Shown here: piece by piece, positions 1-30,850 of the stretch
How positions within the stretch are numbered: the first letter of the stretch is position 1
Layout: the number at the start of each line of letters is the position of its first letter
NCBI GenBank assembly: GCA_037576195.1
Contig: CM075101.1
Coordinates: 31,992,001 to 32,056,000, forward strand
Source of the DNA: Phytoseiulus persimilis
Taxonomy: Eukaryota > Arthropoda > Arachnida > Mesostigmata > Phytoseiidae
Direction of reading: 5' to 3'
DNA: 64,000 bases
Program-made: the position numbers and the translations under genes
The notes under the pieces: model-generated
Told to the model about the DNA's origin: nothing
Seen by the model: only the letters and a program-made list of their open reading frames with translations
The model's database searches: none

Positions 1-1529
1 AGCGATTTGAGCCAGAAAACACCTGGTACAAAATGTGTCATGCACAGTTCAGTAAAAACAGACGAGCTCACGCGCCACGTGTGACATGAGCGTGGGTGAC
101 CGAAGCGATGGAAATCGTGCGAATTGACATGCGCGAAAAGATCGGGAAAACGGGAGTCTGGCGATACATGGGGGAGTTGTAGACATTTCCGCATATGGCA
201 CTTTGCTGACGTCTCCTCGATGTTCCTCTGGTGGGTTCAAATTATCGACGAGGAGACTCAGTCTGTTGACAACAATGAATCATGATCATGATCCTTCACG
301 ACTTTGGTTGCGCCCGCTGGATACCGAGTCAGCGGAACGTGCGTCGATCCCGATATGCAGGACCGGAATCCCTTCTTGTGTACACACTTGACTTGGCGGT
401 CCGATGATGTATCCATATTGGTTGTATGCACTTCTACCGAATCTGAGTTGATCTTGATTCAGCAAAACGAGGTGAGCTGAAAGCCCAACGATGTAAGCCC
501 GGGTTCACGGAGTTCATCATCATCGGTGCTCCTCCAGTTGTATTTTGAGTCGTCCTCGTCGCCCTAGGTATTTAGTAGCGAGGATCGTATCGGCGCGAAG
601 GCGTGGGTGTTCTGAATCGATTTTGGCGGTCCCGGGCAGTTCTCAAAGCTAACGTTACTTCAATCACACCGCAAACAGGCGAAGCCCTGGAGGCGCCAAG
701 TCAGCGTTTCACTGCTTCAATCAATCCTCGCCTGCATTTATTATTCCCCTTTTATCCCGCGGTCGCTCGCCCTTCGTGCCCGGACGGCCAGCTTTCTCGC
801 TGTACAGGCGTGTCTTTCCCCTGAGTCCCGCTTTTCGTTGAATTCGCGTTCATTTGTTCTTCCTCCCTTTCCGTCTCCTGCCGCTGTCATCAAGGGATTC
901 GCCGACTCAGCCGCTTGGCTCCTCTGTCGAAAACTAGCTTTCTGATCAACTACCTCCCACAGACCGAATCCCATCCAAGTGACGGCTCTCAGATGTCGTA
1001 AAGTTACGCTTCGGATGATCGAAGGTTGCAGAGTTCCTCGAGGATGTGGCGATGAGAGTGTGAAGTGGAAACGACCTCCGCACCAACGGATGTGTGCACA
1101 GAGTTCGAGACATTTTTTGGATCCGAAACGATGATTCTACGGTTGCGGGCGTTGATACATGTCGGGCATCCATCCACTACGGCCCTGAATCACAGCTCAA
1201 TGCCGCTATTCCAAGCCAAAGTCTAGTTGCGAACTCTTCTGCTCAGTTCCTACGCGTTCAAACTCTCTCCATCGGCTCTCGTAGGCCGAAATCGCCCCGG
1301 GGTGGTCAGGAAAACGGACTATGATCGGTTCTCTTCATGAATCTGTGCATTTGGAGTCTGGCACTTTCGTCCTGATTTAGCAGACGATACCATGAACTGT
1401 TTACAAACAAAGTCAGAACGCACACGGAACTCATGTATCTTCATTAATCTGGAACTCTGTTGGAATGTTTTCATCGCTGGATTGAAACGTTTTTCACTCC
1501 GTTGTCGGCATCAGCATTCGAATGCCATC
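1..1529. other. Noncoding stretch upstream of MTG2
   Basis: No exon, RNA gene or repeat was recognised here. The open frames are short and none has a familiar motif or a convincing start and splice context. The frame of the MTG2 gene is open back to 1392, but that extra N-terminal part looks like read-through into the 5' leader. The MTG2 promoter and leader should lie in the right-hand part. Confidence 0.5.
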
Positions 1530-2669
1530 ATGCTCGGGCGGCCTTCGACTGTGTTCCGTCCTGTGGCGCTCTTCGTTAGGTCCCTGTGCACGCCCGTGGC
1601 ATTGGAGCCTGTGAAGATCAAATCCGCGCACGACAGAAAGAACACATTCTCCGACTGGAGGAAGATCAGAGTTGCCGGAGGCAACGGTGGCAGAGGCTGT
1701 ATATCTTTTATGAAACTGTTCTGCAACCCGAACGCGGGACCAGACGGAGGTGATGGAGGTAACGGAGGACACGTTCTGTTGGAAGCTGATCCCTCCGTAA
1801 ATTCGCTCGGGCATGTGCCTGCTGCAAGCATACGAGCTTGGGACGGCCAGCCGGGGCTTGGGAAACACTGTCATGGTGCAAAAGGTCAACATGTGATCGT
1901 TTCCGTCCCACTGGGAACAGTTGTCCGCAAAGATGACGGTACAGTACTCGCAGATTTGGATTCGCCAGGTGTGAAGTTCCTAGCCGCAAGAGGGGGAGCC
2001 GGTGGTCGAGGCAATAACTTCTACTTGAGCAATGAGAATCGACATCCGCAAGTGTGTCAAATAGGTGCCCTCGGGGAAGTGAAGTCTTACGTACTCGAGA
2101 TGAAAACCATGGCGCACGCCGGTATGGTGGGCTTTCCTAATGCGGGGAAGAGCACTCTTCTGCAAGCCATCTCCAGGGCGAAGCCCAGAGTTGCAGCGTA
2201 CCCGTTCACGACTTTGAGGCCCCATGTTGGCGTCGTTGAATACGACGACTACGAGCAGATAACCGTGGCAGATCTTCCGGGAATTATACAAGGAGCTCAC
2301 GAGAACCGCGGCCTGGGCATAGACTTCTTGAGACACGCAGAACGTTGCGAGTGCCTCCTCTACGTCATCGACGTCAGCGTGGAAGACTACGAGCGGCAAT
2401 TGGAAGTTCTTCGAAACGAGCTAGAATGCTACCAGAGAGGATTCTCCGCTAAAATTTCGATAATTATCGCGAATAAAATCGACATTGTGGAAAAATCCGT
2501 ACTGGATGAACGGGTCCATCGGCTGGCATTGAATTGGAATCTGCCGGTCATTCCCACAAGTGCAAAGTTCGGCAGCAATGTTTCGGCTCTGTTGAAATCT
2601 CTCCGGAAAACATACGACGACATTAAAGGGAAGAGACCCGCGCCAGTTTCTGATGTGATCATCGGTTGA
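1530..2669 (+). CDS. MTG2: Mitochondrial ribosome-associated GTPase 2 (Obg family)
   Basis: Intronless gene for a 379-residue Obg-type GTPase, the MTG2/GTPBP5 family, which acts in late assembly of the large mitoribosomal subunit in the matrix. The glycine-rich Obg fold comes first (GGNGGRG, GPDGGDGGNGG, ARGGAGGRG). The G domain follows with G1 GFPNAGKST, G3 DLPG, G4 NKID and G5 TSAK. I chose the start at 1530 because the next residues (MLGRPSTVFRPVALFVRSL) form an Arg-rich, acid-free amphipathic presequence as expected for mitochondrial import. An in-frame ATG at 1392 would add 46 residues that do not look like a presequence. The length is near the human protein (about 406). All GTP-binding motifs are intact. 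Bacterial-type ObgE is the only real alternative and the presequence argues against it. Confidence 0.93.
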   Translation: MLGRPSTVFRPVALFVRSLCTPVALEPVKIKSAHDRKNTFSDWRKIRVAGGNGGRGCISFMKLFCNPNAGPDGGDGGNGGHVLLEADPSVNSLGHVPAASIRAWDGQPGLGKHCHGAKGQHVIVSVPLGTVVRKDDGTVLADLDSPGVKFLAARGGAGGRGNNFYLSNENRHPQVCQIGALGEVKSYVLEMKTMAHAGMVGFPNAGKSTLLQAISRAKPRVAAYPFTTLRPHVGVVEYDDYEQITVADLPGIIQGAHENRGLGIDFLRHAERCECLLYVIDVSVEDYERQLEVLRNELECYQRGFSAKISIIIANKIDIVEKSVLDERVHRLALNWNLPVIPTSAKFGSNVSALLKSLRKTYDDIKGKRPAPVSDVIIG

Positions 2670-2728
2670 TGACTCTATACCTGTGTGACAGCAACAATGT
2701 ATATATTGGTCTGAACCGGTAGAAGTGA

Positions 2729-2734
2729 ATAAAA
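2729..2734 (+). terminator. Poly(A) signal of MTG2
   Basis: AATAAA about 60 bases after the MTG2 stop codon, in a T-rich context. Confidence 0.7.
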
Positions 2735-3957
2735 TATTTTGCAGCGACCAGAAATTCAGACTTGTTAGGCGCCCCATTCGATGACGGTCCAATATGAGGC
2801 GGGTCCACTACTATCTCTGATTCTTCTTACGAATGTCTTACGGAAGAAGGTTCCACCCACTCAAATAACGGGAGCTCGGGAAGACACCGGAGGCGATCTC
2901 CCGCTCATTTTCCATTATATAACGTCCGTTGCACAAGATTGAGGAATAATTTTTGATTAGATTCCCACACTCATATTTCTTGCAATATACGATCCCGCTC
3001 GGCTCTCGGGCCTGGCTCCAAAAAGATCTTTCTGGTATATTGATGGGCTTTTAAGGATTTTCTATTGGTGAAGGGCCACCTACAAGAGAGTTGAGATGTA
3101 AATGAGCCGCTTGGTCAGCGTTTTGTCTGTTTCTCTCAGAGGGGAAAAGGTGAAGAAATAGTAAAGCGTCGACTTTGAGGGAAGACGAAGGTGTCTTCTA
3201 CATTCTATCGTTCTCCAAAGTGAATTAAACATGAGGCTAGCTCTGCCTCCTTGTCTGCCAGTCCCTCTGGCTGCGTCTCTGTCCTCGGTGTTGGGCTGCG
3301 TCTATCACGCTCTGCTGGGTTTTAAGGAGACCCACCGTTGCAGCCGCGTCCTGGGGCCCCGGCTTGCATTGTTTCGAACTTTCTGTTTGCTTAGCTTTTC
3401 ATTTATCCGCGCGAAAGAACAGATAAAGCGTTTCTAATTGACTGAACGGGCCAACGATGGGCTGATATCGAGCCACTGAGGCTGCTGCCGCTAATTCTTT
3501 GAGGGTGCGCTCTTCGCTGGGAGCTTGTTGTCAACTCGAATCGAGCAGCCAACTCTTCTCACGCGAGCGCTCGACTGTGTCGGGAATCGCTTCCCTGAAC
3601 TTGGACTTTGGTTTGATGCGACGAGTGGACGGGGGGGGGGGGGGGAGCGAACTCATTTTCCGCGGTGTGGCTCAGCGCAATGGTCGAGTAGGATATTCGG
3701 TCATTTCACGGGGATTAAAGCCGAACTGGACGAAAGCAAAACGCCGACCAGCGCGATGATGGCGACTGCCCGCCGACGGTTGATCTCTCGGTTGACGCAA
3801 TTCATACGAGGTCTTCGCTCTCGGGGGAGTGAGAGAATATCGAGGGCTTCTGAAGTTTGCGAAACTGTTCACATTCTCATCCATTATCATTCCTACTTCG
3901 TTGGGGACACTCTCGACCTCACCACAAGTATCTAACTAGGAGTTTTGACGCTTGCAG
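2735..3957. other. Intergenic; MARCHF5 leader region and missing first exon
   Basis: A G homopolymer of about 15 bases lies near 3632-3646. The first coding exon of MARCHF5 must lie here or further left, because the first recognised exon (from 3958) begins in mid-codon after an acceptor (cttgcag). I could not choose a convincing ATG and donor. The ATGATG at 3755 is a candidate only. Confidence 0.4.
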
Positions 3958-6900
3958 ACGCAGTTGCTGGGTTTGCTTCGCAACTGACGAAGATGATCTT
4001 GAAGCCTCATGGGTGGAGCCGTGCAAATGCAAGGGAACGACAAAATGGGTTCATCAACAGTGCTTACAGCGATGGATCGACGAGAAGCAGCGAGTGAATC
4101 ACACCCAGAGAGTCAATTGCCCTCAGTGCAACACGGAATACTTGATTTTCTTCCCAAAGTTTGGTGAGCGGCGACGTTTAGGCCCGGGATTCCCCGAAAG
4201 CTGGCATGAGCCGGCCAGTGTGCTCATCCTCGATTTTGATTTCGCAGGGCCTTTCGTTTACGTCTTGGATCTTGTGGATCGTCTTTTGTATAGGATTTCG
4301 CCTCTGTTGACGGCCGCAGTTGTTCTCGGGTCCGTGTATTGGTCGGCTTTGACGTACGGTGGGATCACAATACTGTTGGTGAGTTCTCGCGAACGCGGTG
4401 GGGAAGAAAAAAGCCGAAAGGTCTCCGATTCGAGTGAGACGAGAAATCAAGAAGTGTTTGTGTTCTCAGACTTCAGGGCAAACGGAAGGGGCGCGTATAA
4501 TGGAGCAAGCTGACCCCATTTTCCTTTCGGTTACCCTCCCGACCATTCCTGTCATGCTCATTGTGGGCAAAATGGTTCGCTGGGACAGTTATCTCCTCAA
4601 ACTCTGGTGGAGACACGCATCGAGGTGAGTAGGGAGAGCTTCGCAGGGACTTCAGCTGGCTTGGCACTCTCGACTCGCGGGAGGGAGGCATTGAAGAGTT
4701 CGTACTAGATTGACAGGTTCGACTAATTTGCAGATTACCCGACATGAAGGACTTGTACAGCTCTTTACGAGGAGAATTGCCGGGCAATACGTTCGTCGCA
4801 CCGCCAGAGACTATCAATCGGCTGCTTGATCAACCATTGTTGAACGATAGCTACACAGCTACGCGAGTGTTTGTTTCTGCTCTACTGCTCCCACCCGTGG
4901 CCGTTCTCGTGGGGCGAACATGCTTTTCAGGGGTGCGAAGTCCCTTTCAGAGAACGTTGCTGGTAAGTTTCATCCCATGGGAAGCCCTACGAGCGGCTCC
5001 TGAGCATGCTTAGCTAATCTCCCGTACTTTAATGCTGCCACTTTGAAGGACTCTCGGTTCAGGGAGCGAAAAAGAGCCACGCGGGGCCGAGTGCAGTCCG
5101 AAGTGCGGCGGGTGCACTTTTATTAGCCCAGAACGCATTTCAGCGAAGCTCGTCGCCCTCCTGAGTGAGGAGTCGGTAATACTGGTCTGAGAAATAGTCT
5201 TGGTGAGCGAGCTGCTCAATTAACTGAGGCATAGGAGAAACGGAGTACTTGGCAAAAGTAGAGAATACTCTTTATTAACTTTCCATAGCTCACTTAGTAC
5301 GTAGGTTGCCTATTCATACCCCTCGTGATCAGAAAGAAGGGAAATTTCGTTTTTAGCTCCGTCTCCGACACCAGCTCGAAAAGCTTCCACTCTAAAATTT
5401 GTTAAGATTCCAACAACAATATCCGGCTCCAGGGATCAATTACCCCTTATTTAGCTCTGCCTCGTCCTCTTGGACATACACAGCTTCACCTCGTCAATAT
5501 TGGTGATCCACCAGCCACTCAATAAGTCAGACAGTCCATCGGTACATCACTCAATTATTCGATTTATCAGGCAAGCATGCAGACAATCCGGATCTATCAC
5601 ATTAGACGCTGTATTCGTCTTGGTGCAGTCGCGCTATTTACAGTACGGAGTGACTCGATGGATTCGTCCTCCTTGAAATGTCTCATGTTCGAGCAAATCC
5701 GCTTCGACATAAACAATTGTATTTGAAGAATATATATTTCAACAGTTTCTGCTCGGTTCAGGCTTGACAGTCAAGAACAATTGACAATTCGCTACGATTT
5801 CGGACCGGCTCATCCACTATGAGTCTCGGAACGACTCTGGTCCTCCCCTGGCGTACTCACTCAATGGTTCTACCTATGTTCCTTGTGTACATCTGGTTGC
5901 TCACTTCGAAGAAGCGAGAATAGCCGATTTGGTGAGGCTGCAAAGCTTGATGCTAGTTTTTCACGTTGGCGTCGTCGCTTGATGCCGTTCGTCTCCGAAC
6001 AGATGGTATTTCTTTACGGTAGTTGACTAGACAAAGAAGTTAACGACGGGAGTATGCGACTCCGTGGACGGTGTTGTCGACACAGGTCACTCGGAGATAC
6101 TCGTCTCTTTTGGTTCTGAGTCTACATGGCATCGAAGTTGAAGCGATGGGCTTGCTGCTGCCTTTCGATCTTATCCGCTTTCTTTTCCATCATGTGCAAG
6201 GCAAGAATGATTATGACATTGACTATCACCACACCAAAGAGCGTGATCCCGGTCACTAACATTTTACGTGACGGTGTGATGAACAGTTTGTTCTGCCACT
6301 GCGAGGGATCAATCGTCGGATTCGGGATGACAAGCATTTGAGAATTAGGGATGATTTGTGTCCATTGATGACTTTTGTTAAGACCGGGCATCCGGACGTC
6401 CAGACTCTCAACGAAATTAGGTGAGAGTCCTATACCGAACAGTATGTAAGGCAGTTGAAGGGCGCCATGACTCGTTTGGTAGAGTTGGGCAGCCATGGAA
6501 GTCCTCATTTTGCCCTCGGAGTCGATGATGCTGTAGGTCACAACTGGCCCGGGCTGATTATATCTGGAATGTAAACCAGGACAGCTCTTAAGACGCGCAC
6601 TTCGAGGAATGACGAAATGGGAGGGGGCAGCGTTTCGCCAGTATGCCCCAATGTTCCGGCTTTCCACTCACCCGTACTCGATGACATTCTTCTTCTCACG
6701 GCAGCGATCCTTGGCACAAAGTCCGCTGACGGTGATAACTTTGATGAAACATGCGTCTTCGGCGTACGGATTCTCCAAGGCGGAGATGCTCCAGTTCGCA
6801 TCGTTGAGATCCCCGCTGGAGATCAAGACATCCATCTTGCCGTTTTCACGGATATCAAAGAATCCCAAGTTCGTCACTTTGGAGAATGCTTTCAGATCCA

Positions 6901-9900
6901 CTTGATCGAACTTGGGTTCCAGTTTTCGGCCGAGAACACAAGACGCGCCCTCGCATCGTCTATTCAGCATGTTCACGACGCCTCTTCTAGCGCTCGCAGA
7001 ATCTTCGTAGATTGCCATGAAGTCCGGAAAACCGTCTTGGTCCACGTCGGCTGATTTCAAAGACATCATCGCGTTCACGCCGTTCTGGTATTTAGTGTTC
7101 ACCCAGAACTTCACGTTTTTGCTCAATGTCAGAACCCTTTGCCATACGCCGGCACTCGAGCCGTCCGCCACGGGGACCCAAATGAGAATTTGGTCTCCTC
7201 CGTTCGATGACACCGTAACCAAGTGCGAGAGCTTCCCCGTCGAGTCGAAATCCACGAACACAGACTGACCAAGTTTTTCCGCCGCCAAGCCGTCCGGGTA
7301 TTTCCGATGAACTTTACTGAGCTCCCAGACTGCTGTGCCCTTCCACAGCCAAATTTCGTAATGGGTTTCAGTGGAAACCAGCAAATCTGGGTTGAGGTCT
7401 CCATCCAGATCTACGAATGAATTTGAATGAAAGGAAGCCATCGGCGTCAAACCCACTGAGCTATTACTCAGAGGCTTCGGCTGGCATAGGCGCCTCCCAC
7501 AAGAGATCACTGTCCGAGTCTTCCGCGAACTGTCTCCGCACGTGAGAATGTCGACGAGGCGGTCTCCGTCGAAGTCGAACAACGTAGGCTCGGCGAAAAC
7601 GTTCTTCTCCGTGACCGCTGCTGACTGGAAGTTTTCGATTGCTTTTATTTCTCGGACAGCGTGTTTCATCCAGGTTTGTGAAACGAATTTCATAGGAGCG
7701 CATACGAATTCGCAAATTGCAGTAAGTGTCTCACCAGATTTAGCAGGTTGGTCGCGTTGGCGTAATCTCCCGTACCCCAATAGATGGTAAAGCTCGCTGA
7801 CTCTTTCGAGTAGAGGAGGATGTCCTGTATCTGGTCTCCATCGAAGTCAGCCGGTATGACCGAATCCACTCGGAAGGGCAGGTCTTTCAGTAGTGTTGTC
7901 CTCTGTGAAGTGTCAATGGAATTAGTACCCTGCGCCGCTTCTCGACAAGAGTCTCTCTGCTGTAAGCTTCCGTCGTCGCACCCGAAACAGCGGACGCAAA
8001 TCAGAATGGGCAGAACGAGTCACGAACGCGTCTTGTGAAGTGACCGCTCAGTTTATATATGGGAGCTATCCAAACTTCCAAGGCCGCTGAAGGTTCTCAC
8101 ACCGAAATGGTTCTCTTCGCGATTGCGCCAGGCAGTGTGCCAAAGCGTTCTAAGCTGCAAATGAGATTCGATTTACAAGCTATTCTCTACCTCCAGAACC
8201 CTTTCGTGTTCGGCTGTTCCGTGGAGCGATGGTGTTCCGAGTTCCTGATCCACCCGATCTCCGCAGTGACCGCCGAAAGTCAACTCTTAGCTCCACCGCG
8301 AAATGTTATTGTATTGCTTTCTGGTTTTCCGGTTCTAACGACAATGTCTGTTTTGACGTTGATATTGACTGATAGATCCACTACGACAGTTGATAGATGA
8401 GTCATGTTTGACACACTGAGATTCCAGAAACAACGCAACTTGAGCAAACATCAGCGGAGTCAAGCGTGACATTTCGTATTCATGCTTGAGCTACTATAGA
8501 TTGTCGTACGCAGTACGAAGTTGACACCAGAACTGAATGATCCACCCCAACGGGGGACAACGCGGTTGATTCATCTGCGAGTGATCAGAGCACCGTTCGA
8601 AAGCTGTCGGTCAGAAGACGGCCAGAACGAGCCCCAGTTTCCAAGATGGCCAATCAGTTGGATGGACGTTCAAACGGCACGATGAGAGACCGAGCCGATA
8701 ATATTCGTCAGTGTCCTTGATTCACCCACGTAACCGGATCACACGTCCGCGTCAAGATGGCGAATTCTGTCTCTGTCCGGTGTTTGGCGTGCAACTGTTC
8801 CCAGTTTCCGCCCGAACCTACCAAGAACTGCTCCTCGGTGAATCTTGAGATGAGGGCCTGATTCACGTCGAGTTGCGTGAAGCCTTTGCTTGGATCCGGA
8901 GCTAACAGCACAAATACGTCGATTGATTTATCACTATTGAAGTCCGCGAACGCAGCCAAGTATCCGCTGTTGTTCTTGAAAACTGATGTGGTGATGTCTC
9001 TAAAAGGGTCATCAGCTGCCCAACACAAAGGCAAGACGAGTAAAAGCAACAAATCCGGGCCCAGCATTCTGACAATCGCTTGCTTCGAACGCACAGCCAT
9101 ACTTGTTTGCTTCGGAATGGCTTGCTCGTATGAATGCAGGCTGGCTGACTGCTAAGTGCGGCTGCTGCTGTCTCTAGCGCTGCCGTCACTGAGTGGTCCG
9201 GTCGGTTCTTAACGGCCCATACACGAGTCGACAGGCGGCGGGTTGATTCCAACTTGTGACGCGGTCGAGCACCGTTGGAGTAGAGAACCCTGTTTCGTTG
9301 GGTCATCCTGATTTTGGAAGTTGATCGAGATCTTCTGAATTTCGGTCGACGTCCTCTCACTGCCCGGGAGGGGGGCGGCGGACTGACGATTCAACTGGGC
9401 GACGAGTCTTTCGATCTACCCGGTGAGGGCTGTGAGCGATAGCTCAGGATTTAGCGCTCGAAACTCTGGCGCTCAGCTGTTCGGCGAAAGTACCCTTGTT
9501 CAATCCGATAAAGGAGTTAGCTGGAAGTTCAACTTGATTCGGAGTTGGATGGATTCGATGTGAGCATATGAGCATCCACTACAAGACGCTTTCAAACCGA
9601 CATGTCAGGATAAACCTATTCAGGAGGGAGCGTAGCAGTGCAAAGCTCAGGAAACCGAGTCAGAGAGAGGTCGATTCGCGCATTTGGAACGCTTTCGTCC
9701 CTTGGGCAGCAAGGCCCGAAATAATTGAGTGAGCTGCGCTGCGCATGAAACTTGGCATCGGGAAGAAGATGTTGGCATCTGTGCTCCGAGTGTCGACGCG
9801 CCGACAATCCTCGTTTGGTGCAATGAACGTTTTCGATAGAGAAGCCAAGAGAAGACATCGAGATCGTTGGGCGACGGATCCCGAAGCGGAGAAGAGCGAT

Positions 9901-11488
9901 TATCTGAAAGAGGAAGTGGGTTACCGGCTCGCAGATAGGCTGTACGACGTTAAAAGGAAATTCGACACCATCGTGGAACTCGGCTGTGGACGAGGCTATA
10001 TCGCTCAACACCTCGACCAGGAAATCGTTGAGAACCTCATAATGTGCGATTTTTCTGCTAAAGTGCTGGAAGTTGCGAAGGGAAACGAGAAGATCAACAT
10101 CCGCAGACAAGTGGTTGACGAAGAGCTACCTCTACCTTTCGAAAAGGACTCCATCGACGCCATAGTTTCCAGCATGAGCTTACACTGGGTTAACAATCTG
10201 CCAGGACTGTTTTGTAGCGTGTACGACGTTCTCAAACCTGACGGAATGTTCACGGGAAGCTTGTTGGGGAATGACACGCTATATGAGCTGAGAGGAGCTA
10301 TTCAAACAGCCGAAACAGAGCTCGAAGGAGGTTTTGGCATCCACATTTCTCCTTTCGTTCAACCTTCGGATTTGGGAGGTCTATTGAGAGCTGCAGGGTT
10401 CAACATGCTCACATTAGATTCGGACATGATCTGTGTAGGATATCCCAGCATGAAAGAACTCATGGGTGATCTGAAGTCAATGGCGGAGAACAACTGTGTC
10501 TTGAACCGGAAGACGCACCTCCATCGCAAAACTCAGGAGCTAGCGGTCAAGAAATATAGCGAGATGTACGGTGATGAGAAAGGGAATATCCGGGCGACAT
10601 TTCACATTTTATCCTTCATCGGCTGGAAGCCACACGGTAGCCAACCAAAACCCGCCAAACGGGGTAGCGGCACGGTATCATTGAAGGATCTTCACAAACT
10701 GCAAGAGAAGCCTACGAAATAAATCCAGTTTTAGAAACTTGTATATTTGTTGTTTATTGCAATAAATGAGAAGTTCCAGTTTCCCGTCAAGGAACTGAGA
10801 GCAATCCATCCGGTCTATTGATTGGCTCACGACAACACTTGTGGTAAACGTCATGGTCAGAAAACACCCCTTTAGAGACGGAGGATCATCTCAGCCTGGG
10901 GGAAGTCAGCCTGAAAAAATTGAACCAAGTCAGCAGAAGCAGTTCGCTGCTCGGGCTCAAGTTAGATGACCTTGAGCAACGGGTGTTTTTTTTCAAATTC
11001 ACCGTTGGATAATTATAGAAAGCAGCGCTACTCAGGTAATATTCCAAAATGCCGAGATCCCGACGAATTCTTACTGTGTTGCCACCAAGTTTCCATGGCC
11101 TTGACCCAAGACCAGTACCTGACCGATATGAGGCCCGCCTGCGTCTGCTCTCCTTGAGGTTCTTGAGAAGTTTCATGGGAGACATGATTTTACCTTTCCC
11201 GAAACGGAACGAGACACGGGTTCGGTGTAATCCTGGCTCCAATGGCTCGTCGAAAAACTACCGAGCGCCCTTCAGGGCGTTCAGTCCAAAAGGAAGTTTC
11301 TGATTCCTAACGTGGAGCATTCCGTGTCTTTGCAGGGAGGACTCTCGTTCATCATGGTTAAAGGTTTCTTCAAGATATATTTGCGACGGAAACAGTTTCT
11401 GCGCCAGCTGAGGCGCAAAGTGCTCAACTATGGCGAAGACCTCAATGAAAATGAAGAACTGGCGCTCTACGGAGATGATCAGGAATAA
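3958..11488 (+). CDS. MARCHF5: E3 ubiquitin ligase MARCHF5 (MITOL), spanning a gene nest
   Basis: RING-CH ubiquitin ligase of the mitochondrial outer membrane, known to act on fission and quality-control factors. Exons seen: 3958-4163, 4248-4378, 4470-4624, 4734-4962 and 11336-11488; all phases join. The first exon carries the RING-CH finger (SCWVCFATDEDD, CKCKGTTKWVHQQCLQRW, CPQCNTEYL). The next encode the membrane segments after FGPFVYVLDL, including LPTIPVMLIVGKM. The exon ending in QRTLL at 4962 has a perfect donor (gtaagt). The matching C-terminal exon, GGLSFIMVKGFFKIYL to the stop, is 6.4 kb away after a good acceptor (tttgcag) and corresponds to the family C-terminus (GG+AF...KGAFKVYFKQQ). 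The N-terminal exon is not located. The ending at 11488 rests on family similarity and phase. Confidence 0.88.
5145..5328 (-). CDS. 3' end of an unidentified minus-strand gene
   Basis: Reading leftward, a frame ending DQYYRLLTQEGDELR-stop precedes a reverse AATAAA near 5121-5126. A T-rich acceptor (tttctcag) just before DQYYRL joins in phase to a short upstream frame containing WKLFELVSETELKTK that ends at a GTATGA donor near 5325. An alternative acceptor further upstream would instead give LIEQLAHQDYFSDQYYRL. I do not recognise the protein and found no further exons between here and ITFG1. The stop codon and the poly(A) signal make a real gene end plausible; the upstream exon is speculative. 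Confidence 0.4.
6122..9100 (-). CDS. ITFG1: ITFG1 / T-cell immunomodulatory protein homologue
   Basis: Type I membrane protein with FG-GAP (integrin alpha-like) repeats, the TIP/ITFG1/LINKIN family, linked to cell adhesion. Exons in transcript order: 9100-8726, 7902-7735, 7624-6672 and 6563-6122, which join in phase to 645 residues (human about 612). A signal peptide follows the start (LLLLLVLPLCWA). FG-GAP calcium-binding repeats are visible as DFNSDKSID, DFDGDQIQD, DFDGDRLVD, DLDGDLNPD and DVDQDGFPD. The C-terminus has one membrane helix (TGITLFGVVIVNVIIILAL) and the diagnostic tail HRFNFDAM. The start could also be the second Met (MLGPDLLLL). The end of exon 1 is the least certain junction. 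The whole gene lies antisense inside the last MARCHF5 intron. Confidence 0.9.
9745..10722 (+). CDS. NDUFAF5: NDUFAF5, complex I assembly factor (Arg hydroxylase)
   Basis: Intronless gene for a 325-residue class I SAM-fold protein of the mitochondrial inner membrane. Family members hydroxylate an arginine of NDUFS7 during early complex I assembly. The presequence (MLASVLRVSTRRQ) is basic. The core begins FDREAKRRHRDRWA. The SAM-binding motif is VELGCGRGYIAQHL, followed by the acidic CDFSAKVLEV and the family block SSMSLHWVNNLPG, then GSLLGNDTLYELR. An ATG at 9769 is a possible alternative start. Length matches the family. It lies in the sense direction inside the last MARCHF5 intron, downstream of ITFG1, whose start at 9100 is 645 bases away; the two are transcribed divergently. 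Confidence 0.93.
   Translation: MKLGIGKKMLASVLRVSTRRQSSFGAMNVFDREAKRRHRDRWATDPEAEKSDYLKEEVGYRLADRLYDVKRKFDTIVELGCGRGYIAQHLDQEIVENLIMCDFSAKVLEVAKGNEKINIRRQVVDEELPLPFEKDSIDAIVSSMSLHWVNNLPGLFCSVYDVLKPDGMFTGSLLGNDTLYELRGAIQTAETELEGGFGIHISPFVQPSDLGGLLRAAGFNMLTLDSDMICVGYPSMKELMGDLKSMAENNCVLNRKTHLHRKTQELAVKKYSEMYGDEKGNIRATFHILSFIGWKPHGSQPKPAKRGSGTVSLKDLHKLQEKPTK
10761..10766 (+). terminator. Poly(A) signal of NDUFAF5
   Basis: AATAAA 39 bases after the NDUFAF5 stop. If MARCHF5 is transcribed through this intron, this signal must be bypassed or suppressed in the MARCHF5 pre-mRNA. Confidence 0.7.
10767..11335. other. Remainder of the MARCHF5 intron
   Basis: No exon I can defend. Minus-strand frames near 10870-11240 are open, and a candidate acceptor (ttttttcag) precedes a short frame ADFPQAEMILRL-stop ending near 10875. 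I could not link this to a protein. Confidence 0.35.
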
Positions 11489-13849
11489 TTCTCGAAGGGC
11501 TGATCTGAATCAAGGAAAACACTCCTGCAGAAGTCATCACCCCCGCTTGATCGACAGTACGGCTGCTGCGTTTGTGAACCAGGAAGCCTCAATTCGAAAT
11601 GACCAGTGTTTGTTACGTTTGCGGAAGCTTATACAGGCGAAAATATTGAAAAATATCAAATTGTGCGGCAGATTTCTGAGTAAATATAATCAGCACAGAA
11701 TCCATAAATTGTATTCGTTATCCAAAGCAGGAAGTTCGCCCTCCCCTTTTTCAGAACGCACCAGTCTTGACACTTGAAGCGGCCAATTGGTAGTCTCGAA
11801 ACCTCAGGAACGTTGTGGTGCGCTGAATTCGAGTTATGTGAATACGTATTTTTTACTCTGTGGAATGCTAAAGGCCAAGGACTTCGCAGCTCAAGGCTGG
11901 AACTCGAGATTCAACTGGAGTCTCATCAGCGAATAAGCTAGAGAAATTCCCGATCGAAAGGACAGCTACGAGCGGGGCCTGCGACGGGGTCGGCCACCGG
12001 GACACATCCCAGAGGAACTAGGAACGCTGCATTGAAAGAGAGACTCAATCGAATCCCGGCATGGCGTTGAAGAAGACCAGGTCTACTGATGGAGCGTAGA
12101 ACGAGCTTGAAAACCTGTGAAAAGAATGAAGCCTCCCGTCAAGGGGAAATGAAGATCGACCAGCTTTGCGCAGTTTTTGACAGCCGGTTCCCCCTCCTGG
12201 TTGCGAGGTGGATTCCACTCTGGGCATCATCGTTCCGACTCGGGTTAGAATACCTTCCGGAGGTCGAGAGATATTCCAAAATATCCGCCTTCATCGGGAC
12301 GCTGACTTCCAAACGAGCACGGAGGGATGAACAGAAGCATCTGGAGCAGGGGAGGGCAACTTGGTGCGGCCCGCGGGCCGCAGTGCAGAGTACCATCGCG
12401 GCCGTGCAAACTTACGGGCCGCCACAGAGAACGTATCTCAGCGAGCTCGGAGTATTCGTAATCCATATGAACTGTCTCCAAGGATCGACATTCGGCAAAG
12501 AAGAGGTTTCAAGCTCAGGAATCGTTTCCTTGGGGTCCATGAGAAACCTGAGCTCCATAAAAATCAAAACACTTCGATGTGAATCACGAAGGGTGAACAC
12601 TCGATTCACTCGTCCACCGAGTTGAGGAGACTCACTCAGGTTGGGGAAGATCGTAGGAAATGTTGGATCTCTTTTCCAAGGTAGCGATTTGGCGATTACA
12701 AACGCTTGAGTTGCGCAGAGTCCTGCGCAAACACAGTGGTCCATTCGCGGGCCGCACTTCGCCCACCTCTGATCTAGGGCTCCTCTCATAGAAAAGTTAC
12801 GCGTCGATCTTTTGAACGGTAATCGGAGCGGTGTTCTCGAACTGCACAAGGGGGACCTCAAGTTCTTTGCTGCGCAACATTCCGTAAGATATGTCGTCTC
12901 CGACGGAGAACTGACTTCTTGAAGGAGTGCTCCCTCGTCATCACCTTTGCTGCCTTTTGGCTGCTATTTTTCGTCGAACTCGCCGCTGTCTTCGGTGCTT
13001 GTTTAAAATCGATGGGGACTTAGTGCCGCACAGAAACCCGCCACCATGCTGGAGTTTTACCCTCGAGATCCGCAATCCTGCACGATCATCGGAGGTACGC
13101 GTGAGCTCGTTCTCGAAAACGTTCGTTGAGAATGAAAAATCACCCGGCCATATTTGGGAATATTTCGGCAACATCGATAGTAAAATCAGCTTTGCTGATT
13201 TCGTGACTTGGTGGCTCATCGGTATTGATTCAGTCACTTCGGCCCAGTGCCAGAGAAAATCGACCGTCCTCATAGGTGATGCTCGGTTCAGGACGTTCGA
13301 AGCGGGGTGCCGGTTTGCTCTGAATCCTGTCGCTTTTCATCCGATGTCGAGAGCTCATTGATTGACTGCGATGTGCTTCTTCGACCCCTGCGCATACGAC
13401 CGTTACATGTGGGTGCAATCTCGTTCATCCGCTTCAGGGGATGGTGGATCGATGATGATGACGTCACCAGCGAGACCCTCATGAGTGATTATTTGGTTCT
13501 TGTCTCAAAGTTCTCAACCGAACACTCGAGAGACAATTGCATGCGTTTCCGGAGACCACATGAATCATCCGAACCCGGGTATATTCTCAGCTCTTCAGTC
13601 CTCAGAGTTTCCGCAAATAGTTCCTGATATGATTTCATGACGAGTCCTGGATAGACGATGTCGATTTCAGGCTTCTCCATCCGTGCGTATCGACCTCATA
13701 GTAGTAGTGGTACCATGTGAGTTTCGCAAAAGCATGGATTCTGTGATTTTTTTCAAAAATGATCTCTCATTCTGGTGAAGTACTCAATTCATTTGGGGAC
13801 GGACACGATCTCATCTCACGACAGAGTTGTTGAGCAAACGAGATACTCG
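11489..13849. other. Gene-poor stretch after MARCHF5
   Basis: No recognised protein, RNA or repeat. Several frames of 100 to 180 codons exist on both strands but none shows a domain, a consistent codon pattern or splice support. A TGACGTCA box occurs near 13458, with no adjacent gene. Confidence 0.45.
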
Positions 13850-16160
13850 CTACCGGGAGCTATGGTAAGCAATATTACTCCTTGTGAGTTGTATAACATA
13901 GTGAAGCTCAGAGCGTGTTTGCTTGCGACGCATAACAAAGAAATTCAGGGTTGCATCGGAATTGAGCGGACAACCTGCGATCCTTGAGCTCGAGTGAATC
14001 TGAGATCGGCGGTAGATGAAGGCAGTGAGCATCAACATTACGTCTGTGCGCCACTCTACGGATGAAACTCTTCTGAATGTTCTCGAGGGCACGGGGATGT
14101 TTAGCAAGCCAGCGTCTCCAGACTTCCGAACCATCAGAAGAGAAGACAGTTTGAGCACATTATGGGCTCTAATATATACTCTAGGGAGTTTACAGTCAAA
14201 AGCACGGATAACAAAATTGGCAGTGCGGCTGGCACACATGAGGGCATCTTTGAGATGGCCCTCAGGGTTCAGATCAGAGGGAAGGAGATCTCCGAAATCT
14301 TTGAAATGATCAAATTCGGGAATCTTTCCCCTGAAGAGCACGTACTCGAATGAGTCTGTATGAAGTACATGGAGGGTGGCAGATTTCGAGGTGAAAATAT
14401 GTAGTTTCCGCCAGTCAGCCCGATCCCCAATGTTACGGATGCATTGCTGGAGGGCAACGCGGCCGTCGGGTCGAGAGTCGAGACGCATCAGCAAAGTTCT
14501 TTGTATCGTCGGCGTAGGAGCGATGAGAAACACCTCCAGGAAACTCGAATTTGAGGTGCGTAGTAAACAAGAGAAATAAAAGTGGGCCGACCACGAACCC
14601 TGGGACACTCCTGAAGGAGCAGGCTACCAATCAGAGGCGAACTCATCAATTCTGACGCAAATTGGCGATGGGAGAAGGAGTCTGCAAACCAGCGGCACAG
14701 CAAGGGCGGATGTCAAAGGCAGGAAGCTTCGAGACGAGCAGGCGGTGGTTTACCACGTCGAAGGCTGCACGAAAACCGATGGAAATGACATCGGTCCTCG
14801 TGGACCTGTCGTTTTAAGCAGTCAGCCATTCGTTGAGAGACTCAGCCCACTGAAGGGCTGTAGATCGCCTGGGACGGAATCCGAACTGATGATGGTCGAA
14901 AAGACCATAGTTTTCACAGTAGCTGATAATCCGATTTGCAAGTATCTTTTCCAAGACCTTGCTAGAGATCGCAGTGATCGTTATGGGACGATAGTTATTC
15001 ACGTCTGAGCGCTACCCTTTGCATTTTGAAAAAGGTGTGACGAATGATCGTTTCCATGAAGTAGGAACGGGGCCTTTCCGGGAAGATGCATTGAAAATGA
15101 GTTGAAGAGGTTTAGCAAGCCCAAGAGCCGATCTCGAGAAGAAGAGCGGTGGGAGTCAATCTGGTGTGACAGTGAGCTTGTTTTCAAGTGACTGCAGGAT
15201 ATTGTAGACAGACAACTCGTCAATTTCGCTATCGGGGAGGGACGGAACAACTCGCGGAGGCCCACAAGGGGTACAAAGCGAACCCTCGTCAAATACGGAA
15301 AGGGGCATGAAATGTCCAGCAAGTGCCTCAGCTTGCGAGGCGGCCGATGCGTGTACGGACCCATCCCATGTTTTGAGCAGGGTGACACTCTGTTTGCTCC
15401 CGATAAGATTTTGTGCATACCGGAAAAAGTCACGAGAATTCTTCGACGAAACAATACGGTTTCTAATGGCAGTGCGCTCTCGAGCAATCAGTTTCCCCTG
15501 TTTCGCCGGACGTTCGGTCAGGGCGTCATCTGGGACACGCTCATCTGCGAGGAAGTCCATGAGTCTGGAGATGTGAGCAGAAAATTTGTGAGGTCTCTCG
15601 AGGCCATCCCGCACAGGATCAAATGCCTCGCAGAGGCCTTCGAGCCACAGAGGAAGTTGTAGAGGGCGTTTATATCTTCACAGAGGTTGTCTGCAATTCC
15701 AGACCAGGGAACAGCAAGTAGGTGGCCCACGATTGCGTCATACCCGGCACGCCTAAAGTAACGGATCTGTCTGACGTTATGATCAACGAAGTGGGATGTG
15801 CAGATACAGAAACGTACACAGGAATGGTCGGACTTGGAAGGAGCAGATATGATTTGATGGTCATGGAGGCTGTCCACATAATTGGTGAGGACACCATCTA
15901 GGAGATTACCGCGCCGATGAGTTGGTTTGGTAATGAGTTGGGAGAGCCCATGCGATTGGAGTAGCTCACAGAATAATCCCTCTCTGGAGAGGGCCTCCTC
16001 AGAGTGCGTTGCTTGGCAGCTGAGTGTCGTCCAGTCAATGTCAGGGAGGTTTGAATCACCACAAGAGATGATGGCGGCGTCAATGAGCAGTAGCGCTTCA
16101 AGTTCGCTGAGAAAAGTATGTATTCGAGCGGCTGCAGGGAGGACAGAATGTTTCAACAAC
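13850..16160 (-). mobile_element. Degraded non-LTR retrotransposon (LINE), minus strand
   Basis: Minus-strand frames, broken by frameshifts and stops, carry the parts of a LINE polyprotein in order. The end of an apurinic endonuclease-like domain comes first (CGDSNLPDIDW, near 16040). A linker follows (FFRYAQNLIGSKQSV, near 15400). Reverse transcriptase comes next: NNYRPITITAISSKVLEK and HHQFGFRPRRSTA near 14850-15000, then VVGPLLFLLF and SYADDTKNFAD near 14480-14600. A downstream thumb-like region continues to about 13850. The YADD active-site box is still readable, but the frame is interrupted several times, so it is inactive. The motifs fit the CR1/Jockey-like LINE group; I cannot place the clade. 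Neither end nor any target duplication was fixed. Confidence 0.85.
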
Positions 16161-21009: not shown

Positions 21010-22371
21010 CTATCTGGAAATACTCCGCTTGGCTCGTTTAGGCCCTGTGGAAGAGCCTCTGCTGTCATCCGCTTCGGGATCTGCATCGAGAGACGTTCGC
21101 TTGAGAGTTATTTTCTGTCTATTGTCCAATTTGTCGAAGAAAGGATGATCGAGAGCCTTCCGTAGCGACAATCGCTCCTTCGGATCGTAAGCCAACATTT
21201 TCCGGATGAGGTCGAACAGGTCACGGACATTGTCGTCGCCGTTCGAAACATAGCGGTGAAGTGGTTTACAGTGGTCACGCACGTAGCGACCTGCAGAAGA
21301 CCGTTCGTCCCAGTCGAGGCGGCCGTTGTAGAAGTATCGCGTTTTCGTTCTCTTGGACATCTTGGACGGAATAGGGCCAAGGATTCGCTCCATCATAGCG
21401 AGATGCTCTCGATTATCGTGCGTTTGGAACAAGGTGATGCCCAAATATAGCTCGAAGAGGATGCAACCGATACTCCAAATGTCGCACGACTGGTTCCAAC
21501 CGAGTTCGAGAATCACTTCAGGTGCGCGGTAGTGCCTCGTTGAAACGATTGTTGAGTGGTACTCGTGGTCGAACGTCGCAGATCCGAAATCGATCAGCTT
21601 TATCGTCGTATCTCTGACCTTACGAACCTCACGTTTCTTTCGTTCGTTGAATTGGACGTCGAAGTCGGATCGAACAAAGAGAATGTTCTCCGGTTTGAGG
21701 TCTGTGTGCGTGAGGTTGTTCTTGTGCAGATAGTAAACCGAACAGATCAACTGATAGCCGATGTGGCGAACTTGCTCGATAGGATATGGCTGGTATTCGT
21801 TATCCTTGAGGAAATCGAACACCGACAAACCGAGCATCTCAAACACGATGCACATATGGCCATGATAGTTGAACCAGTTCAACATACGAACGCAGAGCTT
21901 GTGACCTGTCGCATCTTCCTGTCTGTTGAGGGTCTCCAGAACGTTTATCTCCAACTTAGCTGATTCCCTGTACTTGTCCACATTCTTGATGATTTTCAAC
22001 GCGAGCTTTTCTTTCGTATGATCGTCGACTACCTGAACAACCTTACCAAATGTGCCTTCGCCAAGAGTCGCAATGATTCTGTAACGACCCTTAATCACAT
22101 CGCCGATTTTGTAAACCAGATGTCCGTCCGAATCGTCCTGTATTGGAGTCCTCTTGCTGCTCCCGCGCGTTGCAGTGCTGCCACCCTTCGGAGAACGCGA
22201 CCGGCCCTCCTTGAGTGTTTTCTCGTTCGCGCGAGATCTCGACTGTTCCCGAGCCCTCCTTTTCCTTCGAGTTTGCGACGTGGATGTCGTCGAGTTCGTC
22301 GTCAGGCTGGCCGTAGTCGACGACGATTGCTTTCTCCGGTTGCTTGAGCTTTTGGATGAATGCGTCATCAT
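21010..22371 (-). CDS. CLK/Doa: LAMMER (CDC2-like) dual-specificity kinase, intronless
   Basis: Single-exon gene for a 453-residue CLK-family kinase; relatives phosphorylate SR splicing factors in the nucleus. The N-terminal 100 residues are Ser/Arg/Lys-rich. The kinase domain starts near [20 protein letters not shown]. Visible elements are the glycine loop GEGTFGKV, catalytic lysine ALKIIK, catalytic loop [21 protein letters not shown] and the diagnostic [12 protein letters not shown] box. The C-terminus is basic (KRAKRSISR). All key residues are intact, so the enzyme should be active. Animal CLK genes usually have several introns; the absence of any here suggests retroposition or intron loss. 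The start is supported by the ATGATG at 22371 and a stop-rich leader. Confidence 0.93.
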
Positions 22372-24170
22372 GTGTTTGTGAAGAAGCGTTCAGAATAATA
22401 CTCTGCTAAGGAATGTTCGAATGTTACCTCCACGAAGATACTTCTACCACCGTAGAGCTTGAGAGGGCGGACACCTGACTCTACGCCACAGCATGCTGAT
22501 ACCAACCGCTCATCGGAAGGAAATATATTGCCACACAGATATATGGAGGATCAAAATACAACTACGAAAACCACCTCACGAGGGGAAGACTGTATCAATA
22601 GGCAATTGAATATCAAATCCAAAACAGAAAGCCTTACGTGTTGAAGTTTATGTTTGAGTGCCGCCAGTTGTGGATTCTTAACTTAATGTCGAAAGTACAC
22701 AGCTGTCTCGTCCAAGAGCCGGTCGCATCAATACGGCGGCTATGTCTATCCCGTTTGTGCCTAATCGCAGGCGCTTCCCCGCTAAAAGCTTCTTCAGATC
22801 ACTAGCTCCAATAACTCGAAATCCGGCCCGATATTTGACTGATTGGCCTGTTCCTGCGTGCTCGCTGACGATTGCGGCTGCCGCTGGTGCTGCTGTTGTT
22901 GTTGGCTGAACGACTGCAACAAGGCACACAAGAACAAAGCTTGTTCTCACCTTAGAAACTTCGAGAATTCACCAGGCAAACTCATGTTGCGCAACGCTTG
23001 ACTTTGAGAATGGCTCTGGGTCGATTCTCAATCTCTGCCGCTATCGTTCCTTCCTCTACGGAACTGCTGAAGCGACGTTTACAACTCCCAGTTGTTCCTC
23101 TTCGATATCAAGAATCGAGTCTATCGGGGCACCGGAAGTTGACATGGATCCCAGAACGACGCGCGAATTTTCGAAAATTTCGGGGCCCAATGGAACTCCT
23201 GTTCACAATCAGTGAATGGCGTCCGGAGTCCGATATGCTGAAAAAATGTCCATTTCAGCTCGATGGAGGATGTTTGGGTAGTCCAGAGCAGCGCGTATGA
23301 CTGGAAAGGAGAGTTCGAGGATGATCCAGAGTCAGAGGCACGAAAGCTAGTTAGCAGACGATCTCATGTTTACATTCCACTGCCGCTCCTTCTCGTGAGT
23401 ACGTCGGGTACCTGAGAATTTCCTAGCTGCTGGTTGAAATCGCACCTGACGGTGTACAGGCGCTCTCTGTTTTTCCGAGAACTGTTGTCCCACATGAGTT
23501 GGGAAGTGAGTCCCCTAGATAGTCGAGTTCTCACGCTGCTGACGCAGCAAAATGTATTGCATTGAACCAAATTTGACATACGTTCCTCTAAGAAGGATAC
23601 TCCCTTAAGAATCCGTCAGATCCTCGACTGTCTTGCGGTGGATCGAGAGAGCGAATTGCGCTTGCGGAAATATGTATATTCCCCGGAAGGGAACGGAGAA
23701 GGAACAAAATATCCTGCCGTCCTTACGCAATGGCGGCATCAAATTTGAATCAGCTGTCTTGAACGAAACTATTCCTAAGACTCAAATGCACTGGCTGTCA
23801 ATCGTTCGTGGCGCGATCCGGGTGTCGAAACAGTGCTCAGGATGGTTTATAAACACGTTCACTTTCGCATGGCGGTTCATGAAATATAATTCACTGTTTT
23901 GTAGCTCGTGCTCAGAAAAGCTCTCACAAGCTTTCCACGATTATTGCTGGACGCATCTGGCGAAAATTCGCTGCAGGTCACTCTGTTGAACGTATCTATG
24001 AGACAATATATCAGACTCCAAGAAGCCAGGACCTCCGCGTCACTGAATGATCCAAACATGCTCCGCGATGCTAAGGAAAATTTCAACAACGTACTCTTTT
24101 TTCGTAACCCATGTTTCTTTCCGAACCAGCCCGTTACCGGAACGAGTTCTGACGAATCTTCTTGTTACAG
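22372..24170. other. Divergent intergenic region between kinase and dynactin p150
   Basis: The kinase is transcribed leftward and DCTN1 rightward, so promoters of both should lie here. The acceptor before the p150 ATG (cttgttacag, ending at 24170) implies at least one 5' untranslated exon to its left. On the minus strand at 22680-22990 a donor (AAG/gtgaga) and acceptor (ttgttgcag) could form a tiny two-exon frame starting MSLPGEFSKFL. I regard it as unproven. Confidence 0.4.
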
Positions 24171-24171
24171 G

Positions 24172-27100
24172 ATGGCGGAGAAAGCATTCAAAGTTGGAGA
24201 TCGCGTGGAGTTGTTGGGCAAAGATGTGCTGGGAAAAGTGGCCTACGTAGGGACGACGGAGTTCTCGTCGGGGATGTGGATCGGTGTGATCCTCGATGAA
24301 GCCAAAGGCAAGAACAATGGGACCGTGCAGGGGAAAGCATATTTCAGCTGTCCGGACAATTTTGGAATTTTCCTCCGCCAGTCCCAAGTGAAATCCCTGG
24401 AAGACATGTCATCATCGAGAACCTCGATCGGATCTTCTGCGTCCTCTACGGGGAGGCCATCCATCGGAGGCAGCAAACTTAAACCGCCAACTACCGGAGC
24501 TCCGAGGAAGATATCCTTGGGAACAGAACGAAAGACCAGCATAGGAATCCCAAGAGCGCCGAGTCGAACAGCGAGCACACTTTCTGTTGCGGCGGTGAGG
24601 AATCTCAATTCCGTGTTGGTGACTGCACTACTTCGAATTTACTTTGCTTCCTTGCTGAGCTTCTCACACAGAGCTCCATGCTCTCGGGGCAGGAAAGAAA
24701 TCACTGAGAGTGTATTTATCCATTCGCAGTCAGAGAAGTCCATTGAAGACATGTCAGCTTCGGTGACTTCAGTGAGTACTTCAACTATAGCCACCATTCA
24801 GCTTGAAGCGGAACTCACTTCATCCAAAGCAGAACTGATGAAGAAGGAGAAACTCATCGAGGACCTCCAGGAGAAGCTCGATACGATAATGGCTAAGAGA
24901 AGCGAGGACCGCGACAAAATTCGGGAATTTGAGAAGACGAAGCTCCAGCTTGAGCAGTTGCTAGAATACAAAGCCAGGATAACCGAGAGTCAAGCAGACC
25001 TCCAGAAACAGCTCGCTCTGGTACGACTGATACTGATTCCGAAGGACCCATGCTATATGCCCAGCCTGAGGCAGGGAGGAATCTCATGAGAATGATTCTC
25101 TTGCAGGCCAGGAAGGAGGCTCAGGATGCAATCGACGAAAGGAATCGCCATGCCGAAGAAATGAGCGACGTCAACGAAGCCATCGAGATGGCGACGCTTG
25201 ACAAGGAGATGGCGGAAGAGAAGGTATGATGCCCTTGGAACTCATCTGACCCATTAACGTTCCAGATATGCCGCCTAGCTTAGCCTGGGTCGGCAGAGGA
25301 CTCATCTTAAGAGGAATACTCGATTTTACAAGATGATCGCCTTCAATGTTTATTTACCATGTATTCAAGTAGCAAAAATAATGTCATATGTGCACAGACG
25401 CTGGGCGCCGAAATGAACAGGGGTTCAGCATCATTACTTCGTCCACGTACTCGGCGGAAAGACCTGGTATTTCCGATAGAAGAGGGGGTTGTACAGATAA
25501 CCGGGAAACGTACCGCCACCTTGGTATCCCATTTTTCTCAGCAATTTCTTCAATAAGAAAAAGCCTTGGGCTTCGACGAGCAGACTGGCCTGAAAGATGG
25601 CACAACCGAATATGAATTCCAAGATTATAGGAGTGCCGATGCCTAATCCTTTGGTCGTAGTCGGAAAGGAAGCAACTCTCGAGAACGAATATCACTCACG
25701 AACACAAAAACTGTCAAGCACAGTAATAGGGAACTTCGCGACAGCATCCCGGCGTAGGACGTGGTCTGGTTCCTGACTCCAGAGTCGCCCAGTGCGCTAG
25801 TTATATGTAACGCGCAAGTGGAGCAAGGCTGATCCTAACGGAGATGGAACCACGAACTGGCAAAGGTCGAGCCGTTACGCAACCCCCATTAATTCCTCAT
25901 TCCATCGGTGGCCGCGCGTAGCTGGAAGCTTGTGAGGTCCATGCAACAACGGGACTGCGCGCCGGAGACAGGATGGAAAATTATCGAGGTTTTTCTTTCT
26001 CCTGGGGTCGCCGCCGAGCTCTATACATCATTCATTAGCAAACGGTTGCGTGAACGGACTTGTATTCCCGAGAATTCGTGCTGTCGTGGTCAGTGGAGCG
26101 TGAAGCCGTCAACGGACCTGCCCCAAGGCTTCGATGCCATTAGGCGCCGGCTCCGGGTCGCCAACATGAGCTCTGACGACGAGCTGAAATATTACCACCT
26201 GATGATGACAAAATTGGCGTTACGGTTGTATCAAACATCATAACCGCACGTGCCGAAGCAACAAAATCAGGATTCTCGAGTGTTCAGCCGGCGCTGAGAC
26301 ATACCAATCCTGATTACGATCATCGATCTGTGCTCAACTGAGCCTCTCTAAATATCTTCCAGGCGGAGCAACTTCTGTCGGAGCTGGAAGACTTGAAAGC
26401 TCGCTACGAGCTGACGGAATCAGAACTGAACCTTCTGAAAAAAGAAATTGAGTTGAAAGGTCCCGAATCGGTCGGCGCTGACTACGAGAAGATGAATTAT
26501 GAGCAGACCATTCAGAAACTAAAAGATGCCGTCGTGAAGCTGCGCGACATCAACGCGACGGATCGGTAATTGCTTTCGCACAACGTTCGTGAAATGACGA
26601 TGAACGCAGATTGTCACTGTCTCCGATTCGATGATTCGCCCGAATCGCCTAACCGACATTCAAATTACAGGATCAAACTGACGGAAACGGTGAAGGAGCT
26701 TGACCAGGTCAAACAAGATCTGACAGAGATTCGGCGACTCAACTCGAAGTTGAATCAGCAGGTTGATCAGTACGAGGCTCAAATCGGGGAACTTCACGAG
26801 CAGGTATGGAACACGAGGGACGGATATCGAAGCTCCGCTGCTACAGGAATGATCATTCGAGTTTGTCAAGCTAGCAGATTACGAGACTCCCGACCAAATT
26901 CAGATTGACGCTGCTCTTGGAGCTGAAGAAATGGTGGAGAAACTCACCGAAAAGAATCTCACACTCGAGGAGAAAGTTCGTGAACTCCAAGAAGCGGTCG
27001 ACGATTTAGAGAAACTCCAGGAGCTCAACGATGAGCTACAGGATACAGCGAGGGAGACAGAGCAAGACCTTCGAGAAGAAGCAGAAACGGCGAATGCAAA

Positions 27101-30700: not shown

Positions 30701-30850
30701 GCCTATCTATGTATGGGACTCGCGAGTAGCGCTCTCTAGTCTCGATTGGAGGTTATCCGTTATAACTGGTGACGGTTGTGATAAGTGAGGCAATTAATGT
30801 CGCTAGAACGTTTTTTCCGATCAGTCGGTCGCTTCAGCTTAGAGAGCGCG

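Follow-up and report, generated by a model that had tools for sequence, protein, structure and literature searches.

MARCHF5, a mitochondrial ubiquitin ligase (E3), is very probably encoded here in an ordinary intron-nested arrangement, in which the plus-strand host gene would carry the head-to-head genes ITFG1 and NDUFAF5 within a 6.4-kb intron. The window, the whole stretch of 64,000 nucleotides that was analysed, corresponds to G000:C1:31992001-32056000 of a genome of 181 Mb in 127 contigs. Exon order, reading frame, splice-site consensus, homology, the completeness of the inner genes and the absence of detectable second copies of them are directly observed, and the parts of the host gene are the following.

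3958..4163, plus strand: MARCHF5 coding exon with the RING-variant domain; first base is the third base of a codon; gt/ag; identity to human MARCHF5 at 52/67 aligned residues
4248..4378, plus strand: MARCHF5 coding exon; gt/ag; identity to human MARCHF5 at 22/43 aligned residues
4470..4624, plus strand: MARCHF5 coding exon; gt/ag; identity to human MARCHF5 at 28/49 aligned residues
4734..4962, plus strand: MARCHF5 coding exon with the phase-0 donor CTG|gtaagt; gt/ag; identity to human MARCHF5 at 19/41 aligned residues
4963..11335, plus strand: MARCHF5 intron of 6,373 bp between exons 4 and 5, holding ITFG1 and NDUFAF5
11336..11488, plus strand: last MARCHF5 coding exon with the stop codon; acceptor tgtctttgcag; homology to human MARCHF5 and to the C2 paralogue

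Together the five coding exons, all with GT..AG borders, form a single open frame of 290 codons plus stop, and the three modelled introns other than the large one measure just 84, 91 and 109 bp. The spliced protein matches the Pfam family RINGv (PF12906, E 4.1e-13, 49.7 bits versus a cut-off of 21.6), is identical to human MARCHF5 at 143 of 263 aligned residues with the C-terminus included, and by eye appears to have kept the RING cysteines and histidine. With respect to the start of the gene, the weak point of the model, a scan of phase-2 donors over 200-3954 provided no convincing candidate for a start exon or start codon. Between 2700 and 3949 two candidates only, both weak, scored above threshold, namely 3687 (MV|E, 3.4) and 2718 (3.2); the former would end a short start exon at 3680-3687 on the plus strand (ATGGTCGA|gtagga, donor score 3.4). 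The donor at 230 (score 7.6) was rejected as the join creates a stop codon and the donor at 2051 (score 6.2, MRIDIR|K) as it falls within the coding frame of an Obg GTPase, while the other phase-2 donors listed for 200-3954 score at most 3.4. This Obg-family GTPase, one open frame at 1542-2669 on the plus strand just upstream of MARCHF5 (Pfam GTP1_OBG, 1.6e-46; TIGR02729 above cut-off), is presumably the mitochondrial MTG2/GTPBP5.

The join of positions 4962 and 11336 across the large intron is in phase 0, with the acceptor gtgtctttgcag. The donor following 4962 has a score of 10.6, which is the second highest among the seven modelled MARCHF5 and ITFG1 donors (range 5.2-11.3) and the top score of the GT sites scanned across 4955-11334, so that the preliminary description of a phase-0 join with good splice sites is upheld by the GT..AG borders, the open frame and the donor strength. 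Its further statement that the C-terminal residues match the family holds equally, as exon 5 alone is 53% identical to human MARCHF5 over 34 aa (BLAST E 9.2e-9) and 50% identical to the C2 paralogue over 32 aa (BLAST E 3.8e-6; both searches with a set database size of 60 million), and the homology continues uninterrupted from exon 4 into exon 5. In a whole-genome protein search with the MARCHF5 query, which scores only its best candidates, ten matches were obtained, made up of the five window exons, the C2 paralogue and four others: a fragment on contig C3, a weak match at another place on C1 (E 0.036) and, on C4, two weak matches in the RING region. Among these best candidates the window exon alone accommodates the last 53 query residues (238-290), with the C2 match spanning residues 1-273, and therefore no rival last exon close to 4962, a possibility already considered in the preliminary description, emerged from the search.

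The codon score of exon 5 (0.146 per codon versus 0.073-0.140 in eight coding sequences) is not an independent measure because the exon itself belonged to the training set. Between the window copy and the C2 paralogue differences lie mostly at silent sites, with pN 0.30 and pS 0.98 for exon 5 (32 codons) and pN 0.34 and pS 0.81 overall (268 codons), a comparison which, being between two paralogues, cannot tell whether the window copy by itself has been constrained recently. Judged by its sequence, the exon at 11336-11488 is a genuine coding exon of the MARCHF5 family.

Both inner genes run from ATG to stop within the single MARCHF5 intron (ITFG1 at 6122-9100, NDUFAF5 at 9745-10722).

6122..9100, minus strand: ITFG1, complete; coding exons 9100-8726, 7902-7735, 7624-6672 and 6563-6125; stop codon 6124-6122
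9101..9744, no strand assigned: spacer of 644 bp between the divergent start codons, defined by its coordinates; candidate shared promoter
9745..10722, plus strand: NDUFAF5, complete, a single exon and one ORF of 325 aa with a methyltransferase domain

ITFG1 starts with an ATG at 9100 and has four coding exons separated by GT..AG introns of 823, 110 and 108 bp; its product matches the Pfam families C2_ITFG1 (PF23122, E 5.1e-32) and FG-GAP repeats (PF13517, E 5.2e-13). A second ITFG1 copy was not detected, the ORF of the large exon matching itself alone in the genome. NDUFAF5 is a mitochondrial gene for complex I assembly. The ORF assigned to it matches Pfam methyltransferase families, is identical to a segment of human NDUFAF5 at 154 of 292 aligned residues, and over residues 56-295 gives a BioC-like match of 121 bits to the BioC model TIGR02072, below the equivalog cut-off of 185, while its PDB matches are other methyltransferases (best E 4e-9). 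In the genome search for a second NDUFAF5 copy, the single match besides the gene itself had an E-value of 0.14. The earlier claim of two complete genes inside one MARCHF5 intron is thus borne out by gene structure, by homology and by the lack of second copies in these searches.

ITFG1 and NDUFAF5 are arranged head to head, 644 bp apart, and the spacer may act as promoter for both. Its base composition (GC 0.54; CpG observed/expected 1.08, equal to the 1.08 of the window) is uninformative with regard to a shared-promoter signature. A search for recursive splicing in the MARCHF5 intron found a single ratchet-like site, at 6418 inside the last exon of ITFG1, which was given no weight.

A third gene end on the minus strand of the same intron, as also proposed in the preliminary description, was rejected as unsupported. 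The stretch 5223-5143 has a codon score of 0.022 per codon, a chance-level value, given that 21% of the 299 noncoding open stretches examined score as high, shows no Pfam match, has a lone PDB match (E 1.3) to a designed protein and matches only itself in the genome search; as it comprises only 27 codons, this is a weak test. The stretch may be a short exon, but a splice-like acceptor recognized by eye and an AATAAA at 5124 are all that favours this. On the strand of ITFG1, the sequence from the stop codon to 5277 is without AATAAA or ATTAAA and the first such hexamers are found at 5276 and 5124. These signals may consequently represent the 3' end of ITFG1 itself, with a UTR of approximately 850-1,000 nt.

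On the host strand, candidate signals for 3' end formation are located as follows.

10718..10723, plus strand: AATAAA overlapping the NDUFAF5 stop codon, putative poly(A) signal
10761..10766, plus strand: second AATAAA, putative poly(A) signal
11679..11708, plus strand: variant poly(A)-like hexamers, candidate 3' end of MARCHF5 (AGTAAA at 11679, AATATA at 11683, CATAAA at 11703)

That NDUFAF5 carries its own sense AATAAA, as described earlier, is seen at both 10718 and 10761, which are the only plus-strand AATAAA/ATTAAA between 4963 and 11488. Sense hexamers of this type, a shortage of which might have pointed to host transcription, are not significantly depleted in 4963-10717 (none versus 1.7 expected from 300 simulations, P 0.22). 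None is found in the 2.5 kb following the MARCHF5 stop codon (11489-14000), which tells against the host gene model, although no more than 1.0 would be expected there (P 0.34). With two AATAAA before the last exon and none in these 2.5 kb after it, a full-length MARCHF5 RNA must pass both and, it seems from the hexamers present, ends at one of the variants. The host donor is 5.76 kb away from the NDUFAF5 signal. Among the twelve best donor-like sites listed, those at 9422 and 9559 are the nearest upstream of the signal. As the protection by U1 in Drosophila melanogaster is given a median reach of approximately 500 nt (PMC5499120), some truncated MARCHF5 RNA would be plausible. The former conclusion that MARCHF5 has to be transcribed past an active poly(A) site can be kept for the full-length RNA as a fair deduction, while truncated RNA is also possible and the site is a predicted one. 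The idea of the preliminary description that NDUFAF5 and MARCHF5, both mitochondrial genes, may be co-regulated is a speculative one.

In the proposed course of events, transcription of MARCHF5 on the plus strand would traverse the entire 6.4-kb intron, in which ITFG1 on the minus strand and NDUFAF5 on the plus strand would each be expressed, presumably from an own promoter within the 644-bp spacer. The NDUFAF5 RNA would terminate at its own signal near 10718-10761. The polymerase transcribing the host would often pass these signals, upon which the strong donor after 4962 would be joined to the acceptor before 11336 and produce the full-length MARCHF5 RNA.

Of the alternatives, an unlikely one is that the window MARCHF5 is on its way out, with a second gene doing the job and most or all window RNAs stopping at the NDUFAF5 signals to encode a protein without the last 50 residues. 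This second MARCHF5-like gene, the C2 paralogue (contig C2, L003 1300-2352; match at 22762977-22763783), which does not figure in the preliminary description, is intact, with a single open frame over the homologous part and a contiguous C-terminus. It is identical to the window MARCHF5 at 134 of 268 residues and as close to human MARCHF5 (144/261 aligned residues identical) as the window copy (143/263). Its appearance is that of an ancient retrocopy or of a gene from which the introns have been lost. By eye, a Ser/Asn-rich N-terminal stretch was noted in its product. Besides this paralogue, a decay of the window copy would be in agreement with the two canonical sense AATAAA upstream of the last exon and the lack of such a hexamer in 11489-14000, and with the start exon not found by the donor scan over 200-3954. 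On the other hand, the window copy has five open exons with consensus splice sites, RING cysteines and histidine kept by eye, and coding-like codon usage in the last exon, even if the training set included that exon. How a copy free of constraint would differ is suggested by a stray 77-bp duplicate of part of MARCHF5 exon 4 on contig C3 (L002 1501-1577), either a relic or a small templated insertion, in which 69 of 77 bases are identical and six residues are changed over 25 codons. Redundancy with the C2 paralogue may relax the demands on the window gene and lower the cost of interference at the locus.

A decidedly improbable extension of the nested arrangement is that MARCHF5 is switched by the poly(A) signal of NDUFAF5, use of this signal leading to a truncated ligase and its bypass to the full ligase. 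In the truncated product, exon 4 would read into the intron up to a stop codon at 5011-5013, whereby a tail of 16 residues would replace the last 50 residues. If true, one 3' end would couple the output of NDUFAF5, with its role in complex I assembly, to that of the mitochondrial E3 ligase.

It is highly improbable that an assembly misjoin has wrongly placed the ITFG1-NDUFAF5 block in MARCHF5, as this requires two breaks in one intron that left both MARCHF5 parts ordered and oriented. Furthermore, neither inner gene has a second copy that could be found, the window does not contain any N, and the three intron stretches searched as DNA, 4963-6122, 7903-9744 and 10720-11335, match only themselves in the genome (E <= 0.001). 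That the exon at 11336 belongs to an NDUFAF5 read-through RNA or another transcript and is not joined to exon 4 is barely credible, since, while its frame is open upstream to 11231 (85 open codons), this extension is without an in-frame ATG, and phase and homology fit the passage from exon 4 to exon 5 with no gap at the join.

Gene-within-gene layouts are common in animals, so that the nested arrangement of MARCHF5 is, at the level of sequence, a real but ordinary example. Across seven vertebrates, 4.3-8.7% of the protein-coding genes are nested (Assis 2021, PMC8467205), with the proportions in human and mouse amounting to approximately half of those in Drosophila (PMC8467205). In the same source, 220 of 296 simple nested pairs in human and 193 of 248 in mouse, that is 74-78%, are on opposite strands (PMC8467205), which makes NDUFAF5 one of the rarer, though not new, same-strand kind. 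As in the metazoan intron-nested genes described there, complete inner genes are found in one intron, one of them short and intronless and one on the opposite strand, whereas the MARCHF5 nest differs from that description (PMC8467205) in having two inner genes in one intron, one of them on the host strand, and in a host whose other three modelled introns measure at most 109 bp.

The same-strand inner gene with an own transcription-end signal is a mildly unusual feature of the MARCHF5 nest. A counterpart from an arthropod is the tick papilin gene, an intron of which harbours a nested helicase gene on the same strand, as reported in PMC3160391; according to that report the inner and outer exons overlap in the tick, whereas there is no overlap in the MARCHF5 nest. 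In human, nesting on the same strand can lead to truncated or exonised host RNA, an example in PMC3192792 being KTI12, which like NDUFAF5 is a same-strand gene within a host intron, in this case of TXNDC12. There the interference was seen in RNA (PMC3192792), while for MARCHF5 it is a prediction. The lack of introns in NDUFAF5 would be unremarkable if the present genome is that of a relative of the predatory mite M. occidentalis, for which PMC7738191 describes high rates of intron loss and gain.

A literature search on MARCHF5, NDUFAF5, ITFG1 and nested genes, any two together, returned nothing relevant. The MARCHF5 nest provides a clean test case for how a host gets past a canonical same-strand poly(A) signal that lies far inside an intron, where protection by U1 does not usually extend, and also for whether an intact paralogue relaxes the need to pass such a signal. 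With respect to annotation, an automated gene prediction might terminate MARCHF5 with exon 4 and lose the last exon.

Beyond the nest, several other features were noted in the window. An ORF of 845 aa on the minus strand (41892-44426) contains one weak C2H2 finger just under the cut-off (PF00096, 4.4e-5), and an ORF of 564 aa on the plus strand (30785-32476), with no Pfam match at E 0.01, has by eye the look of a secreted or membrane-bound protein. A CAP-Gly protein is encoded at 23908-25086 on the plus strand (Pfam 6.5e-23), is dynactin p150-like by eye and perhaps extends to approximately 30.3 kb. On the minus strand, a protein kinase ORF of 453 aa (21010-22371; Pfam Pkinase, 4.2e-53) is CLK-like by eye, and between the nest and this kinase gene lies an endonuclease/reverse transcriptase relic (15521-16159, minus strand; Pfam PF14529, 7.8e-9), likely a LINE fragment.
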